From a virus, in the IMG/VR virus record IMGVR_UViG_3300042878_000085, positions 1-24,483 of that record: a stretch of 24,483 bases of DNA. One strand, given 5' to 3'. Positions 849-13,650 of this stretch are shown here, in pieces. Both the position numbers and the translations under genes were made by a program. The notes under the pieces were generated by a model. The model was given only the letters and a program-made list of their open reading frames with translations, was not told the origin of the DNA and made no database searches. How positions within the stretch are numbered: the stretch's first letter is position 1; each line of letters opens with the position of its first letter.

Positions 849-1099
849 GTTTTGCACCACCAGAATCAAAGAACCGTGATGACGGCCCAAGCCTGCTGTG
901 CAGCGTCAACGGATGCGGCAACCTGTGGTCTGTACGCATGGACGGGCAGATGCCTAAGTGCTCTTTCCACCAATGGGGCGCAGCGAAGCCAAAGAACGAA
1001 AGCACGATGAGCTACAAGCAATGGGCAGATCGCCAGAAGCTGAGTAAGCCTGTGGCTGATTGGTACAAACAACCTGACCAACAGAAGGAGGAATGGTGA
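845..1099 (+). CDS. Small hypothetical protein with a zinc-finger-like Cys/His set
   Basis: This 84-residue protein starts at the ATG within the ATGA overlap with the DUF1376 gene, so it is probably translationally coupled. An upstream in-frame ATG at 791 lies inside the previous gene and is not needed. Cys19 and Cys24 (CSVNGC) together with Cys39 and His42 (CSFH) could form a small zinc site. The C-terminal half is charged and rich in Lys, Gln and Trp. I do not recognise a named family. Its place between a replication-type gene and a DNA methyltransferase suggests a DNA-metabolism accessory, which is inference. The TGA at 1097-1099 directly abuts the ATG at 1100 of the +1-frame ORF. Confidence 0.75.
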   Translation: MSFAPPESKNRDDGPSLLCSVNGCGNLWSVRMDGQMPKCSFHQWGAAKPKNESTMSYKQWADRQKLSKPVADWYKQPDQQKEEW

Positions 1100-2181
1100 A
1101 TGAGCTGGCTCTTTTCGCGGGTGCTGGCGGAGGAATACTTGGTGGACACCTCCTTGGATGGCGAACAGTCTGCGCTGTTGAATGGGAACCCTACCCAGCA
1201 AGCGTACTGTGCGCCAGACAAAATGACGGCCTTCTCCCGCCTTTCCCGATTTGGGATGACGTACAAACCTTTGACGGCAAGCCGTGGCGAGGAATTGTTG
1301 ACGTTGTATCGGGCGGGTTTCCATGCCAAGACATATCAGCCGCAGGAAAAGGAACAGGCATTGACGGAGAGCGCAGCGGAATGTGGCGAGAAATGGCACG
1401 CATCATTCACGAAGTACAGCCCAGATTTGCGTTTGTGGAAAACTCACCAATGCTCACTTCTCGGGGACTTGGAACCGTTCTTGGAGACTTGGCCGCAATG
1501 GGGTTTGATGCGCGGTGGGGAGTGCTGGGAGCAGCAGACATTGGCGCAAACCACCAACGCAACCGCATCTGGATTGTTGCCAACGCCATTGGCAAGCAAC
1601 ACAAAAGTCAACCATCTACGCAGCAACGGCAGGCCACCGCGCAGTTATTGGGCAACGCCAGCAGCATCAGACGGTCAGAGGGCCGGGACGATTACAGACA
1701 AGATGACGGGTCAAAGCCTGCCACAGATGGTCAACACGCCAGACAAATGGCCGACACCGACAGTGCAGGACTCGGAACAGGCGGGTGGGAAGGGTTGCAT
1801 AGCAAGCGGGAAACGGGGCTTATCGCTGCACCAAGCAACCCAACTATGGCCCAGCCCGAATGCGAGGGATTGGAAGGACAGCGGAGCCAGCCAAGGGAAC
1901 AGGAAGTCACCGAATTTAGGAACGCAAGTGCATTGGCCGACTCCTCGATCAGCAGATCACAAAGGAGCAACAAGCGCGGATGCAATGAGCAAGACAGCAG
2001 CAAGAGGTTTCAGTCCGAATTTACAAGAACTTACGGCAGCAATCTCTGGTGGTGGGCAACTGAACCCAACGTGGGTAGAGTGGCTAATGGGGTGGCCGCT
2101 AGGGTGGACAGACTTAAAGCCATTGGCAATGGACAAGTCCCACTCTGTGCCGCAACAGCATGGGAGCTTCTCAGTAAATAA
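1093..2181 (+). CDS. C5-cytosine DNA methyltransferase (Dcm-type)
   Basis: The 362-residue product carries the C5-methyltransferase motifs in order. Motif I (SAM binding) is FAGAGGGILG at about residues 8-17. Motif IV is GGFPCQD at 74-80, with catalytic Cys78. Motif VI appears as ENSP at 116-119 instead of the usual ENV. Motif VIII is QRNRIWIVA at 155-163. Motifs IX/X end in GNGQVP at 345-350. The enzyme would transfer a methyl group from SAM to cytosine C5, probably protecting phage DNA from host restriction or marking it. The region between motifs VIII and IX, where target recognition lies, is a low-complexity run of units such as MADTDSAGL and LADSSISRS. The start is ATG 1093 or GTG 1096, since motif I begins soon after. 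The gene is overlapped along almost its full length by another open frame at 1100-2200. Confidence 0.88.
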   Translation: MVNELALFAGAGGGILGGHLLGWRTVCAVEWEPYPASVLCARQNDGLLPPFPIWDDVQTFDGKPWRGIVDVVSGGFPCQDISAAGKGTGIDGERSGMWREMARIIHEVQPRFAFVENSPMLTSRGLGTVLGDLAAMGFDARWGVLGAADIGANHQRNRIWIVANAIGKQHKSQPSTQQRQATAQLLGNASSIRRSEGRDDYRQDDGSKPATDGQHARQMADTDSAGLGTGGWEGLHSKRETGLIAAPSNPTMAQPECEGLEGQRSQPREQEVTEFRNASALADSSISRSQRSNKRGCNEQDSSKRFQSEFTRTYGSNLWWWATEPNVGRVANGVAARVDRLKAIGNGQVPLCAATAWELLSK

Positions 2182-2200
2182 TGGTGAAATATGCCTCTAG
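1100..2200 (+). CDS. 366-codon +1-frame ORF overlapping the methyltransferase, WPTP-repeat protein
   Basis: A second open frame of 366 codons runs through the whole methyltransferase gene and 19 bases past it. Its ATG directly follows the preceding TGA and lies 8 bases after AGGAGG at 1086-1091, a better ribosome-site spacing than either methyltransferase start. The predicted protein is not random-looking. It has five related units: LPTPLASN (160-167), WATPAASD (184-191), WPTPTVQD (217-224), WPSPNARD (250-257) and WPTPRSAD (279-286). A Trp-rich segment, LNPTWVEWLMGWPLGWTDL, follows at 321-339. I recall similar WPTP and NP-WVEWLMG-P-GWT readings annotated in other phages, but cannot verify that here. 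Because that segment is read from the DNA of conserved motifs IX/X, apparent conservation could be passive. It may be a real overlapping gene or a by-product of methyltransferase coding constraint. Confidence 0.5.
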   Translation: MSWLFSRVLAEEYLVDTSLDGEQSALLNGNPTQQAYCAPDKMTAFSRLSRFGMTYKPLTASRGEELLTLYRAGFHAKTYQPQEKEQALTESAAECGEKWHASFTKYSPDLRLWKTHQCSLLGDLEPFLETWPQWGLMRGGECWEQQTLAQTTNATASGLLPTPLASNTKVNHLRSNGRPPRSYWATPAASDGQRAGTITDKMTGQSLPQMVNTPDKWPTPTVQDSEQAGGKGCIASGKRGLSLHQATQLWPSPNARDWKDSGASQGNRKSPNLGTQVHWPTPRSADHKGATSADAMSKTAARGFSPNLQELTAAISGGGQLNPTWVEWLMGWPLGWTDLKPLAMDKSHSVPQQHGSFSVNNGEICL

Positions 2201-2496: not shown

Positions 2497-2915
2497 TGCA
2501 AATCATGTTCACAGTGCCTGGACAACCTCACGGCAAAGGACGACCGCGGTTTGCTCGACGAGGAAACTTTGTCGCAACTTACACCGATGCCAAAACCAGC
2601 AGCTATGAAGACCAGATCAGGTTTTACGCATTGCAAGCAATGGGAAGCAGTGAACCGCTTAAAACGGCGCTAGAGGCTTTTATTTACGTCAGGCTACCAG
2701 TGCCTAAGTCATACCCCAAAAAGCGAGCAGAGGCGTGTTTAAGTGGCTCTGAATGGCCTTGCAAGAAGCCAGACCTGGACAATGTTGTGAAATCTTTCAT
2801 GGATGCAATGAATGGCATTGTTTACGGTGATGACTCGCAAGTGGTGGAGATTCACACAACAAAGGTGTATGCCGAGACTGCTGGTGTTGACATTTTGGTA
2901 AAAGAAAAAGAATGA
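2493..2915 (+). CDS. rusA: RusA-family Holliday junction resolvase
   Basis: The 140-residue protein matches RusA, a homodimeric metal-dependent endonuclease that cuts four-way DNA junctions during phage recombination and before packaging. The N-terminus has the family pattern VPGQPHGKGRPRF (residues 8-20). The acidic catalytic set is visible as KPDLDN (Asp94 and Asp96), followed by DAMNGIVYGDD (Asp104, Asp113 and Asp114). Length is typical. Two adjacent ATG codons at 2493 and 2496 are possible starts; the first overlaps the upstream stop. The gene sits with NinB-like and HNH-type genes in a recombination module, and its own stop overlaps the next start as ATGA. Confidence 0.93.
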   Translation: MMQIMFTVPGQPHGKGRPRFARRGNFVATYTDAKTSSYEDQIRFYALQAMGSSEPLKTALEAFIYVRLPVPKSYPKKRAEACLSGSEWPCKKPDLDNVVKSFMDAMNGIVYGDDSQVVEIHTTKVYAETAGVDILVKEKE

Positions 2916-3367
2916 AACTTATTGCAATTCCTGTAAAACTTACAGAAGCAATTGAGTTTGTCCGAAATTTTCATAGGCACAACAAGCCGCCAGTTGGAGG
3001 ACTTTTTGCTGTTGGGGTTTCTGATGGTGAGCAATGCAAAGGTGTTGCAATTGTTTCAAGGCCCGTGTCTAGGTCATTGGATGACGGACAAACTGTTGAA
3101 GTAATACGATGTTGTGTGGTTGACGATGCGCCAAAGGGCTGCTGTTCTTTCTTGTACGCAAGATGTTGGAACGCTGCTAAAGAATTGGGTTGGCAAAAAA
3201 TGGTTACTTACACTTTGCAATCAGAATCTGGCGCGTCATTAAAAGGCGCAGGGTGGAAAGTTATTGCAGAACTAAAAGGTAGAACTGATCAAGGATGGCA
3301 GAACCGACCCGGCAGAGAGTGGCAGGAAGTTGTAGGTCAATCAAAATTTAGGTGGGAAAAAGAATGA
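2912..3367 (+). CDS. XF1762 family protein (GNAT-like fold suspected)
   Basis: The 151-residue product shows the pattern of the XF1762 family found in proteobacterial phages. It has FHRHNKPPVGG near residues 20-30, then KGVAIVSRPVSR, VIRCCVVDD, CSFLYARCWNAAKELGW and TYTLQSESGASLKGAGW. The arrangement of a strand, a helix carrying paired Cys and a Gly-rich turn resembles an acetyltransferase (GNAT) fold, but no activity is established to my knowledge. It overlaps rusA by ATGA and the next gene by ATGA, so it belongs to the recombination operon. Its codons look richer in A/T than those of its neighbours, which hints at separate acquisition. Confidence 0.8.
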   Translation: MKLIAIPVKLTEAIEFVRNFHRHNKPPVGGLFAVGVSDGEQCKGVAIVSRPVSRSLDDGQTVEVIRCCVVDDAPKGCCSFLYARCWNAAKELGWQKMVTYTLQSESGASLKGAGWKVIAELKGRTDQGWQNRPGREWQEVVGQSKFRWEKE

Positions 3368-5711: not shown

Positions 5712-6966
5712 TTTGAACTTTTCTCTACTTCCGTGGCAGCAAGAGGTTTTTGCTGATAAGACAAGGTTCAAGGTTGTTGCTGCTGGCAGGCGGTGTGGGA
5801 AGAGTAGGCTGGCTGCTACTACTCTGTTGATTGAGGCACTACGCTGTCCAACTGGATCTGCTGTGCTGTATGTTAGTCCTACTGCTGGGCAGAGTAGACA
5901 GATCATCTGGGACGTTTTGCTGGAGCTTGGGAGAGAGGTTATCAGCAACAGCCATATCAACAATATGGACATCACCATGATCAACGGGGCGAAGATTTAC
6001 GTTCGTGGTGCTGATAGACCGGATACCTTGCGGGGGGTGTCATTGACCTATGCCGTGCTGGATGAGGTTGCTGATATCAAACCAGAAGCCTGGGAGCAGG
6101 TCATACGGGCGTCCTTGAGCGACAAGAAGGGTAGAGCTATCTTCATTGGTACACCCAAGGGCAGGAACTGGTTCTACGACCTGTACAAGCTGGGTCAGAC
6201 GGAAGATGACAACGATTGGAAGTCTTGGCACTTCACCACTAAGGACAACCCTCTGATCGACCCTGATGAGATTGAGAGCGCTAAGAAGACCTTGAGCAGC
6301 TTTGCGTTTAAGCAGGAGTACCTGGCTAGCTTTGACAATGCCGGGTCCAATGTGTTTAAGGAGGAGTGGCTGAAGTACGGCGAGGAGCCAGAGCATGGCA
6401 GCTACTTTGTGGCGGTTGACCTGGCTGGGTTCGAGGAAGTGGCTAAACAGGCCGCTAACGCCAAGAAAAGACTAGATGAGTCTGCCATTGCGGTGGTGAA
6501 GGTCACTGATGACGGGAAGTGGTTTGTCAAAGAGATTGAGCATGGTCGGTGGGACATCCGAGAGACTGCATCTAAAATCTTGATGAAGATGCGTGATTAC
6601 CGTCCTGTCAGCATTGGGATTGAGCGTGGCGCCTTGAAGAACGCTGTACTGCCATACCTGTCAGACCTGATGCGAAAGAACAACGTCTACAGCCACATTG
6701 TGGATATGACGCACGGCAACCGCAAGAAAGCTGACCGGATTATCTGGAGTCTCCAGGGCAGGTTTGAGCATAGTCGCATCGTGCTGAACAGCAAAGAGGA
6801 TTGGGATTGGTTTACTGACCAGCTGCTGATGTTCCCAGCCCAAGGGGTACATGATGACGGGCCTGATGCTTTGAGTTATATTGACCAACTAGCGGTGACC
6901 AGTTACTTTGAGCAGGCAGAAGACGCCGAGGAATGGGAACCAATGGACATCATTGCGGGGATTTGA
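5704..6966 (+). CDS. Terminase large subunit (DNA packaging ATPase/nuclease)
   Basis: The 420-residue protein is the packaging motor. Its ATPase part has Walker A GRRCGKS at residues 28-34 and Walker B YAVLDE at 116-121, after the PWQQEVF adenine-side motif at 10-16. A coupling-type motif, IGTPKGR, follows at 148-154. The C-terminal RNase-H-like nuclease shows Asp239 in VAVDLAG, a Glu in IGIERGA, and Asp384/Asp385/Asp388 in HDDGPDAL. It translocates DNA into the procapsid through the portal and cuts concatemers. I chose ATG 5704; ATG 5698 is two codons upstream. No strong ribosome site is visible, so translation is probably coupled to the upstream gene. Confidence 0.95.
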   Translation: MSDLNFSLLPWQQEVFADKTRFKVVAAGRRCGKSRLAATTLLIEALRCPTGSAVLYVSPTAGQSRQIIWDVLLELGREVISNSHINNMDITMINGAKIYVRGADRPDTLRGVSLTYAVLDEVADIKPEAWEQVIRASLSDKKGRAIFIGTPKGRNWFYDLYKLGQTEDDNDWKSWHFTTKDNPLIDPDEIESAKKTLSSFAFKQEYLASFDNAGSNVFKEEWLKYGEEPEHGSYFVAVDLAGFEEVAKQAANAKKRLDESAIAVVKVTDDGKWFVKEIEHGRWDIRETASKILMKMRDYRPVSIGIERGALKNAVLPYLSDLMRKNNVYSHIVDMTHGNRKKADRIIWSLQGRFEHSRIVLNSKEDWDWFTDQLLMFPAQGVHDDGPDALSYIDQLAVTSYFEQAEDAEEWEPMDIIAGI

Positions 6967-6968
6967 CT

Positions 6969-9134
6969 ATGGCAACAGGAATGTTTAGCGGTGGTGGTGC
7001 AGCGTTTGGCGTCTTTCCACAGATGAAGCCCAGGCGAATGTTCCAAGACCCAGAAGGGTCTGCCAATGTGCCGTTGGATGTGTTGCGTGGACGTTTGGCA
7101 GGACTGCTGGGGTTGGCGCCTGACCTATTAAACTTCATGGGCCGCAGCCCAATTCCGACTGAGATGTTTGGCGAGACTCAATATGAACCGGCCCCGCAGC
7201 TGCCCTATGGCTCCGAATACTACCTTCAGAATCTGCCATTAAGACCAACTGCCAGGGTCGGGGAAGTCGCTGGACAAGCAGGCGCGTTCGTACCGCTAAA
7301 CCCAATGCCAGCAGCACGAGCAGTGGCAGCAGGCGCTAGGACACTAGCCCCAATAGCGGGACGAATGACAGAAGGCTACTTGCAGCGCCAGGGGTTGATG
7401 CCCAACATCGTTCCAAGTGAGCCAGTTGGAATGCTTGGTAGCCAAATCAAGCCGCAAGCACCAGTGTCCCCCATTGGTTTCTACTCAGCCGCCGAGCAAG
7501 CAGCATTGGCCCTTCCCCGTAAGTCAGGCACTGGTGATGCGTTCCTCAATGATTTGATGAAGGGGCAAGACGTTAAAAAGGATGAACTCTCTTGGATGGG
7601 GTTGGATGAGTATCTGAAGGGTAAGCCCAATGTGACCCGGCAAGAGGTGCAAGACTACATTGCTGGCAATAGGGTTGATGTGCAAGAGGTGAGGTTAGGG
7701 GATAAAGAAGTGAAATTCCCAAGCACAATTGGTCTTATGAAACGAGAAGAAGTACTCAACAGTTATCAACCAAAGTTAGATGCCCTGTATGCTGAAGATG
7801 CAAATTATGCAAATTTAACACCGCAAAGATATGAGGAACTAAGCCAAGAAATCCGTGCTTTGGAACGTCAACGAGATATAGATGCTGATGCGGCTTATGT
7901 AATGCCATCATTTAAGCCAGCACCTACCAAATACGAGAGTTACCAACTACCTGGCGGTGAGAACTACCGTGAGATATTGCTGACGTTGCCAGTGGATGCA
8001 CGTGCAACATATAACAAGATTGCCAAAGAAGAATTCTCTAATGCATATGCCGACCTGACACCAAGTCAACAAACACAAGTGCAAGGAATGGCGAGAGGAC
8101 GAGCGCAACAAAATTACGAAGGAGTTTACACATCATCCCATTTCAAAGAACCCAACATCCTGGCGCACATGAGGGTCAATGACCGCATTGATGCTGATGG
8201 CAAGAAGATGCTATTGATTGAGGAAGTGCAATCCGATTGGCATCAGGCTGGTAGAGAGAAGGGGTATCAATCAGCAAATTCAGTGAAAGCAAAACAAGCA
8301 TTTACTGATTATTCAAATGAACTTGCTAATAAATACAATTTAAACCCAGAGCAAAACCTTTCAATGTACGCAACCATGAAGGGCATGAAGCCCGAGGAAG
8401 TTGCCAAATACGATCAGTTGCAATCAGCTTGGATAAGCACCAAAGAAGGCGTACCAGACGCACCCTTCAAAGGCACCTGGCATCAACTGGCGCTGAAACG
8501 GGCGCTGAAGTACGCTGCTGACAATGGATATGACCGAGTTGGTTTGACAACGGGTAGTCAACAAGCAGAGCGTTATAAACTTTCAAAACAAATTAGCGAA
8601 GTGCATTACAGCGGGACAAACTTCAAAGCATACGATCTTGATGGTAATGAAGTGATTTCAAGAACAGGTGTAAAACCAGAAGATATAGCTGGACTGATTG
8701 GTAAAGAGCCAGCCAAAAAACTGTTGGAGCAACCAAAGCAGGGAACGCTTCAATCTCTTACAGGACAAAATCTTGATGTCGGCGGCGAAGGCATGAAGAA
8801 ATATTACGATGAGATTTACCCAGCGTTCTTTGAAAAGCAAGGCAAGAAGTACAACGCCAAGACAGGTGAGACAACGATTGGCAAAAAAGGAACAATTGAA
8901 AAATCTGGCACAAGTTACTACCAAACACCAGATACAAAGGCAACAGTTCGCTACATTGACATTAGCCCAGAGATGCGTGGCGGTGTAAAGAAAGGCCAGC
9001 CGCTGTTCACCGCTGCACCGATTGGTGGCATTGGCCTGGGGGCCGGGACGCAAGATAATGAAATGCCTGATGCCGTGCGACAATACATGGCAAACCCTAT
9101 GTATTCCGACCCGTTTGCTGATCCAATAAGGTGA
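6969..9134 (+). CDS. Polyvalent-protein-domain (LPD-like) protein
   Basis: The 721-residue protein sits between terminase and portal. Residues 1-160 are Ala/Gly/Pro-rich and resemble internal virion-type sequence. From 171 (FYSAAEQAAL) to about 245 there is a module with KSGTGDAFLNDLMKGQ and a WMGLDEYL motif. From about 397 come HMRVNDRIDADGKK, EEVQSDWHQ, FKGTWHQLALKRALKYAA and TGSQQAERY. These match my memory of the large polyvalent protein-associated domains known from phage and conjugative megaproteins, whose exact function is unknown. Those proteins are thought to be delivered with DNA into the host. I chose ATG 6969, three bases after the terL stop with GGGG upstream; an in-frame ATG at 6933 lies inside terL. 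DNA of about 7690-8960 looks more A/T-rich than its flanks. Confidence 0.72.
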   Translation: MATGMFSGGGAAFGVFPQMKPRRMFQDPEGSANVPLDVLRGRLAGLLGLAPDLLNFMGRSPIPTEMFGETQYEPAPQLPYGSEYYLQNLPLRPTARVGEVAGQAGAFVPLNPMPAARAVAAGARTLAPIAGRMTEGYLQRQGLMPNIVPSEPVGMLGSQIKPQAPVSPIGFYSAAEQAALALPRKSGTGDAFLNDLMKGQDVKKDELSWMGLDEYLKGKPNVTRQEVQDYIAGNRVDVQEVRLGDKEVKFPSTIGLMKREEVLNSYQPKLDALYAEDANYANLTPQRYEELSQEIRALERQRDIDADAAYVMPSFKPAPTKYESYQLPGGENYREILLTLPVDARATYNKIAKEEFSNAYADLTPSQQTQVQGMARGRAQQNYEGVYTSSHFKEPNILAHMRVNDRIDADGKKMLLIEEVQSDWHQAGREKGYQSANSVKAKQAFTDYSNELANKYNLNPEQNLSMYATMKGMKPEEVAKYDQLQSAWISTKEGVPDAPFKGTWHQLALKRALKYAADNGYDRVGLTTGSQQAERYKLSKQISEVHYSGTNFKAYDLDGNEVISRTGVKPEDIAGLIGKEPAKKLLEQPKQGTLQSLTGQNLDVGGEGMKKYYDEIYPAFFEKQGKKYNAKTGETTIGKKGTIEKSGTSYYQTPDTKATVRYIDISPEMRGGVKKGQPLFTAAPIGGIGLGAGTQDNEMPDAVRQYMANPMYSDPFADPIR

Positions 9135-12944: not shown

Positions 12945-13162
12945 ATGTCTACATACACCGAAATTGTTTACATCTCTCAATTTGACATCCAGCCCAATGG
13001 GTGCATTGGCGTTCGCAAGAGCGCACAACTCTTGTGCCTAACGACCCACAAGCAGCCACAGTGCTGGATGAGGCGTACTATTTTAACATTGCCACCTACG
13101 CTTGGAGCCAACCGTCGCCACAGCCGTATGACCCGAACCCACCTAATGAAGCCAGCACCTAA
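12945..13162 (+). pseudogene. Frame-broken small tail-fibre-associated protein
   Basis: ATG 12945, after AAAGGAAAA, begins a frame reading MSTYTEIVYISQFDIQPNG and CIGV, an opening I associate with small phage proteins next to tail fibres. After about 13014 that frame becomes unnatural, rich in Cys, Arg and His. The frame two bases along is open only from 12986 and reads ERTTLVPNDPQAATVLDEAY, then an Asn/Pro-rich tail ending at a TAA at 13160-13162. Joining them by a -1 shift near 13017-13020 gives a protein of about 72 residues. No canonical slippery heptamer is visible, so an indel or short internal deletion is likelier, though an assembly error cannot be excluded. The original frame also stays open into the next gene. 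Confidence 0.55.
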
Positions 13163-13406
13163 ACCCATTCTGTGGTTCCTAAAAGCGACCAACTCGCTGG
13201 CAATCACCATGCCGTGGAAGACGGTTTACTGCCGCCCCGGTGAGCAGGGCAACCTGCCGCTGGCAGCGCATGAAGCGGTGCATTGTGAGCAGATCGAACG
13301 GGACGGGGCTATCAAGTGGACGATCAAGATACTGTACTACCTGCTGCGATATGGATACCTCAAAAGCCCATACGAAATTGAAGCACGAACAAAATCAGGA
13401 TACTGA
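13146..13406 (+). CDS. Mini-zincin, small HEAVH metallopeptidase-like protein
   Basis: ATG 13146 gives 86 residues whose centre is AAHEAVHCEQ, with the HExxH zinc motif at His42-Glu43-His46. A downstream Glu in SPYEIEAR (Glu77 or Glu79) could be the third ligand, as in gluzincin-type folds. TMPWKTVYCRPGE precedes it. Short HExxH proteins of this type occur in phage late regions, where their role is not established. It could cleave a virion or host protein, or act in lysis beside the following small membrane proteins. It overlaps the end of the broken gene by 17 bases. The same frame is open further upstream, but that sequence belongs to the broken gene. Confidence 0.7.
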   Translation: MKPAPKPILWFLKATNSLAITMPWKTVYCRPGEQGNLPLAAHEAVHCEQIERDGAIKWTIKILYYLLRYGYLKSPYEIEARTKSGY

Positions 13407-13407
13407 C

Positions 13408-13650
13408 ATGACTGAGCCTGAACGCCGAGTAGAACGCTGGCATCTTAAAAAAGAGATCCAGTTAACGCACATTATTAGCACTATCTTGCTGGTTGGTGCA
13501 GTGCTGGCATACGTCAATCAGATTGAGCAACGGTTGACTATTGTTGAGACTCAACTGCTGGCCCAGCGTGATGCAACAATTCTACAAAGGGCGCAGCTGG
13601 AGCGCATGGATGCCAAACTGGACAGGTTGATTGAACGTGGCAGCAAGTGA
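13408..13650 (+). CDS. Small membrane protein with a coiled coil, holin or spanin candidate
   Basis: ATG 13408, one base after the previous stop, gives 80 residues. A charged N-terminus is followed by a single membrane segment at about residues 20-37 (THIISTILLVGAVLAYV). A charged predicted coiled coil with heptad-like spacing (IEQRLTIVETQLLAQRD and so on) runs to the C-terminus. This architecture fits i-spanin-like or holin-like proteins, or a membrane-anchored virion factor. There is no sequence family match I can name. The next gene begins at the base after its stop. Confidence 0.65.
   Translation: MTEPERRVERWHLKKEIQLTHIISTILLVGAVLAYVNQIEQRLTIVETQLLAQRDATILQRAQLERMDAKLDRLIERGSK

Follow-up and report, generated by a model that had tools for sequence, protein, structure and literature searches.

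One stretch of phage DNA read in two selected frames: a probable two-subunit C5-cytosine methyltransferase

Two-chain C5-cytosine methyltransferases (MTases) are the closest described systems to the locus analyzed here. In M.EcoHK31I (YGGCCR; 1995), the small subunit is reportedly encoded within the gene of the large one but in another frame, in about 176 codons. The large subunit of this enzyme contains motifs I-VIII and X, and the small subunit contains motif IX only; the predicted target-recognition domain (TRD) is located in the large subunit, not in the small one (PMC3404938). M.AquI is naturally split near the variable region, and its small (beta) chain contains motifs IX-X (PMC3404938). 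Few long same-strand overlaps have been proven, and annotation pipelines discard one frame of such a pair. We found no paper describing the present overlap in the literature searched.

The DNA analyzed, hereafter the window, is the whole stretch of 24,483 nucleotides at positions 1-24,483 of the viral record IMGVR_UViG_3300042878_000085 (IMG/VR); alpha, beta and the other parts of their locus lie on its plus strand. One open reading frame (ORF), alpha (1093-2181; 362 aa), was identified as a C5-cytosine MTase (PF00145, E 3e-31; phrog_363, 2e-66). A second ORF, beta (also called P1; 1100-2200; 366 aa), lies in the +1 frame and comprises an N-half, a TRD-like region with PTP repeats and a motif-IX-like helix. 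As the preliminary description had stated, both frames are open over approximately 1.08 kb, on the same strand and in registers that differ by +1. Its view that such double openness is unlikely by chance also held: upon permutation of synonymous codons with exact codon usage, a mean of 5.8 stops was expected in the +1 frame, and the probability of an open frame was P = 0.0005. The third frame contained about 20 stops per locus on average in 132 distinct loci.

Scans with either protein revealed at least 599 related stretches in viral contigs, and the nested arrangement was also present in bacterial and some archaeal assemblies, amounting to dozens of genomes; the overlap is old and very common. 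These genomes include Thiobacillus, Pseudomonas, Acinetobacter, Burkholderia, Halomonas, Verrucomicrobia, Planctomycetota and Poseidoniaceae, as well as a Leptospira plasmid and the chromosome of E. coli strain PT62, where the copy lies in a prophage, and Acinetobacter phage vB_AbaM_ABMM1 has the nested form as well; in E. coli PCP07014, one site carried stops in both frames. The relative register was +1 throughout the relatives. The +1 frame contained no stop in 129 of the 132 distinct loci, and the MTase frame contained none in 124. A rough division by architecture gave at least 185 nested loci, at least 27 with partial overlap in the +1 register and at least 21 fused genes, counts that are lower bounds because 72 loci escaped the regular expression used for motif IX.

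The +1 frame could be a mere shadow, kept open by composition and by the amino acids of the MTase alone. The codon usage of the locus indeed lowers the number of +1 stops, and with the codon usage of its own gene family, the window alone gave P(open) = 0.003 for this frame. However, in 121 aligned viral loci, with the expectation taken from the gene's own codon usage, no +1-frame stop was observed where about 369 were expected in the N-half and 144 in the middle. Upstream of the motif-IX region, the count was 0 against about 510 expected, and each sub-stretch was depleted. Frequent +1 stops in relatives, which the preliminary description had named as a result that would speak against a second gene, were thus absent. 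Overlap-type dN/dS ratios from 58 independent pairs pointed the same way. The beta dNN/dNS, a ratio that on its own is open to bias because codon positions 1 and 2 differ, was 0.42, 0.30 and 0.28 across the N-half, 0.14 in the middle and 0.095 at the end, and the beta dSN/dSS was 0.19 to 0.37. Selection was consequently not confined to the MTase frame, as beta dN/dS was below 1 in all regions. Relatives of the window's terminase gene, which is not overlapped, served as the control; the same ratios in its +1 frame were 1.8 and 1.1, with 20.6 stops per gene. Position bias is an unlikely source of the low beta ratios because the control deviated in the opposite direction and the other tests are free of this bias.

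The substitution pattern along the gene revealed where each frame is constrained. In close pairs, differences at MTase codon positions 1/2/3 were 0.057/0.031/0.142 in the N-half, 0.254/0.087/0.085 in the middle and 0.102/0.044/0.145 in the end region. The position that is free in the middle region corresponds to codon position 3 in the +1 frame, so the codon signal changes frame there, which is not expected of a shadow. The alpha dN/dS changed accordingly, being 0.037, 0.13 and 0.11 in the N-half, 0.65 (or 1.17) in the middle and 0.077 at the end. Between motifs VIII and X, beta carries the codon signal and the alpha sequence is a passive shadow. The caution that conservation of the second protein might be a shadow of the MTase is therefore reversed in the middle third, where the MTase frame is the shadow. 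Within the N-half, fourfold sites of the MTase showed from 0 to 48 changes, a dispersion of 7.9 compared with 1.2 in the control. Those under beta W113, Q117 and G135 had 0, 0 and 1 changes, respectively, compared with 17.4 on average, and the most constrained block of the beta N-half by this measure was KYxPxxxxWKTxQCSLLxDL...TWPxWGxMRxGECWE (1409-1549). Both frames were under purifying selection by comparison with the non-overlapping control, and the +1 frame constitutes a genuine gene selected along its whole length, as the preliminary description had suspected. Openness through composition and MTase amino acids is ruled out by the stop, codon-position and dN/dS tests with their control, unless the alignments are systematically wrong, and we regard it as exceedingly improbable. 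The locus thereby reveals which frame pays for which part.

Alpha contains motif I (LFAGAGG; 1111-1131; identified from sequence and alignment, with the same DNA read as the beta N-terminus), the catalytic PCQ motif IV (FPCQDIS; 1318-1338; in invariant alignment columns), the EN motif VI and motif VIII, as a C5-MTase catalytic domain does. Motifs I-VIII occupy about residues 3-165; motif X (GNGQVP; 2125-2142), nearly invariant across 58 homologues, is also present, and motif IX is missing. The PF00145 match covers only profile positions 5-196 of 324, and the TRD and motif IX that belong between motifs VIII and X are absent from the alpha chain. Its best PDB matches were M.HaeIII and M.HhaI (E 1e-12 over 168 columns). 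Residues 166-315 are near neutral and predicted to be disordered. In the AlphaFold model, the large domain had a pLDDT of about 80-95 and the C-terminal helix was confident, while about residues 192-340 were disordered with pLDDT < 50.

The middle region (1588-2037), where alpha is this near-neutral linker, encodes the PTP-repeat TRD-like segment of beta. The repeated PTP-type units that had been noted in the +1 product are present, and so is the segment LNPTWVEWLMGWPLGWT (2060-2110), nearly invariant across 93 homologues. The preliminary description had placed LNPTWVEWLMGWPLGWT on the DNA of MTase motifs IX/X; the segment stood, but it is itself motif-IX-like, and motif X lies just downstream in the MTase frame. 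Its assignment as a motif-IX-like element is based on position and resemblance, as Pfam stops short of the segment. Beta showed no match in Pfam, NCBIfam or PDB, and it matched phrog_1008, labelled 'DNA methyltransferase', with an E of 8e-35. In a profile comparison with the single-chain MTase of Mycobacterium phage WillSterrel, the beta C-half, including the motif LNPxWVEWLMGxPxGWT, aligned to the in-frame C-terminal half of that enzyme (E 7.5e-11). The phrog_1008 family spans this C-half in fused as well as split relatives. The +1-frame product and its motif-IX end are matched by PHROG 1008, 26627 and 35493, whose labels (DNA methyltransferase or unknown) conceal beta-type chains, such as beta, which has no catalytic domain. 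The AlphaFold model of beta alone was poor (pLDDT 53), which would fit a chain that needs a partner and proves nothing.

Beta could instead be an independent protein, acting for instance in antirestriction or regulation, that was overprinted on the MTase gene. The Pfam search found no known domain in the beta N-half, and four metagenomic loci (L016, L022, L056 and L145) carry one to three nonsense codons in alpha and an intact beta, both of which would suit such a protein; the nonsense codons could reflect decay, sequencing error or beta-only loci. Against this, single-chain C5-MTases have a C-half homologous to that of beta, which also contains the motif missing from alpha. A +1 product encoded without an MTase frame was also sought, and genomes searched via phrog_1008 and P1 yielded no convincing case; the good matches all overlap alpha, and one locus (L268) showed a weak C-terminal beta match only. 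A separate job for beta is therefore very unlikely. Since beta is homologous to the C-half of single-chain phage MTases and the anatomy is M.EcoHK31I-like, we interpret the pair as a split C5-MTase in which beta is very probably the detached half (TRD and motif IX) of the same enzyme rather than an unrelated protein.

The start region (1085-1102) contains an AAGGAGG at 1085-1091, two candidate alpha starts (ATG 1093 and GTG 1096), a TGA at 1097-1099 and the beta ATG at 1100. The distance from the AAGGAGG is 4 nt to GTG 1096 and 8 nt to the beta ATG, a spacing that suggests that alpha may start at GTG 1096 instead of ATG 1093. The beta start is ATG in 121 of 121 aligned loci. Of 156 relatives, 120 have an alpha start exactly 4 nt 5' of it (NTGAATG), usually with a Shine-Dalgarno-like tetramer upstream. 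An upstream ORF of 102 aa in the beta frame (791-1099) ends at the TGA abutting the beta ATG, and 70 of 139 relatives have at least 40 open codons ending at a stop before this ATG; translational coupling is possible. In E. coli, overlapping frames are translated from adjacent start codons and ambiguous initiation is documented (PMC9841429), and by analogy, dual initiation at adjacent codons may occur at the window locus. An internal beta start at Met137 was rejected as obligatory; the residue is Thr in 20 and Ala in 1 of the 121 loci, and such a start leaves the open N-half unexplained.

The two halves also occur in other arrangements. They form one chain in Mycobacterium phages WillSterrel and Philonius and in Gordonia phage Jabberwocky, and separate genes in the +1 register with short or partial overlap in Kratark (gp78/gp77), KBurrousTX (gp79/gp80) and Jarcob (gp69/gp70); in Kratark and KBurrousTX, the beta N-half is missing or shortened. 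In Philonius gp55 (L363, 601-2253), an alpha-linker-like stretch (ADPEGQRG...) precedes the PTP repeats in one frame, as though left over from an earlier frame switch. Motif X lies in beta in six nested loci. In some loci of this kind, namely L065 (4091-4414), L072 (3791-4141) and L081 (3863-4210), HNH-endonuclease-like ORFs were observed in the third frame between motifs IX and X, within an extended beta frame that is open through them and also encodes motif X.

These forms bear on a further possibility, namely that a programmed +1 frameshift near motif VIII lets alpha-started ribosomes make a single chain with the catalytic and PTP/motif IX parts and that no separate beta exists. In its favor, the single-chain MTases have the same order in one frame, and L197/L246, L196/L252 and L218 have many stops in the C-half of frame 0, with motif X in the +1 frame. 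However, a frameshift leaves unexplained the openness and selection of the +1 frame in the N-half and the ATG in 121 of 121 loci; moreover, motif X is in frame 0 in the window's clade, so the shifted product would lack it. We consider this frameshift improbable.

We conclude that the locus probably encodes one two-subunit C5-cytosine MTase from a single DNA stretch read in two frames. Alpha, in frame 0, would provide the catalytic domain (motifs I-VIII and the motif X helix), with a flexible linker replacing the TRD of a normal enzyme. Beta, in the +1 frame, would contribute its own N-half followed by the small domain missing from alpha, which comprises the target-recognition segment with its PTP repeats and motif IX. 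As a single Shine-Dalgarno sequence precedes both start codons, which are separated by 4 to 7 nt and lie beside the upstream stop, ribosomes could start either chain from the same site. Together, alpha and beta would methylate phage DNA against host restriction; we infer beta translation, alpha/beta assembly, activity and this role. Some points count against this two-subunit interpretation: the TRD of M.EcoHK31I is predicted in the large subunit (PMC3404938), the beta N-half is missing or short in split relatives, which the interpretation does not explain, and a strict heterodimer does not predict the four loci with broken alpha and intact beta unless these reflect decay or sequencing error. 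A more specific version, which could equally well prove right or wrong, is reciprocal overprinting with two starts 4 nt apart that yields an obligate heterodimer; the alpha linker would shadow the beta recognition domain, and the beta N-half, at first itself a shadow cast by the catalytic domain of alpha, would have become functional later. If true, this would be among the longest and most widespread same-strand overlaps in bacteria and phages.

Several neighboring features of the window were also observed. A Mom-like protein (phrog_1384, 1e-31; 2912-3367) is encoded near the MTase, directly after a RusA-like gene; it fits a DNA-modification role without proving it, and the phage may possess two types of DNA modification. 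Directly after the MTase, small ORFs at 2241-2483 and 2290-2496 overlap by about 190 nt in different frames and have no PHROG match. ORFs at 12945-13406 and 13240-13650 overlap by 167 nt, and with matches of their own (phrog_37302 and phrog_24782), both may be real. A 733-aa ORF between the terminase and portal genes (6933-9134) has no Pfam match.

Many annotated 'DNA cytosine methyltransferases' may be inactive if cloned without the +1 chain, and a mislabelled PHROG family is accounted for. The fused, split and nested forms of one enzyme offer material on the origin of overlapping genes, and an odd enzyme type of 1995 may be a widespread class.

Compared with the known systems, the locus shows likenesses to each and differences from each. 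The single-chain MTases of WillSterrel, Philonius and Jabberwocky share the catalytic half, the PTP repeats, LN/LAxxFxEWMM and motif X in the same order, but in one frame and one polypeptide. M.AquI is likewise split near the variable region with the distal part in beta; however, its motif X is in beta, whereas that of the window is in alpha, and motif X accompanies motif IX as in M.AquI only in side branches (e.g. L197, L196, L065, L072 and L081) and the split mycobacteriophage genes. The distribution of motifs is that of M.EcoHK31I as described in PMC3404938: the large-subunit motifs I-VIII and X were found in alpha, and the small-subunit motif IX has its counterpart in the motif-IX-like segment of beta. 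The frame, start codon and selection seen here would fit a small subunit translated from another frame. In contrast to M.EcoHK31I, the beta frame (366 codons) spans the entire alpha gene, the beta N-half is under selection and TRD-type constraint lies in beta, not alpha. The locus differs from M.EcoHK31I in that the overlap runs end to end, is distributed very widely and shows, by measurement, constraint passing from one frame to the other.
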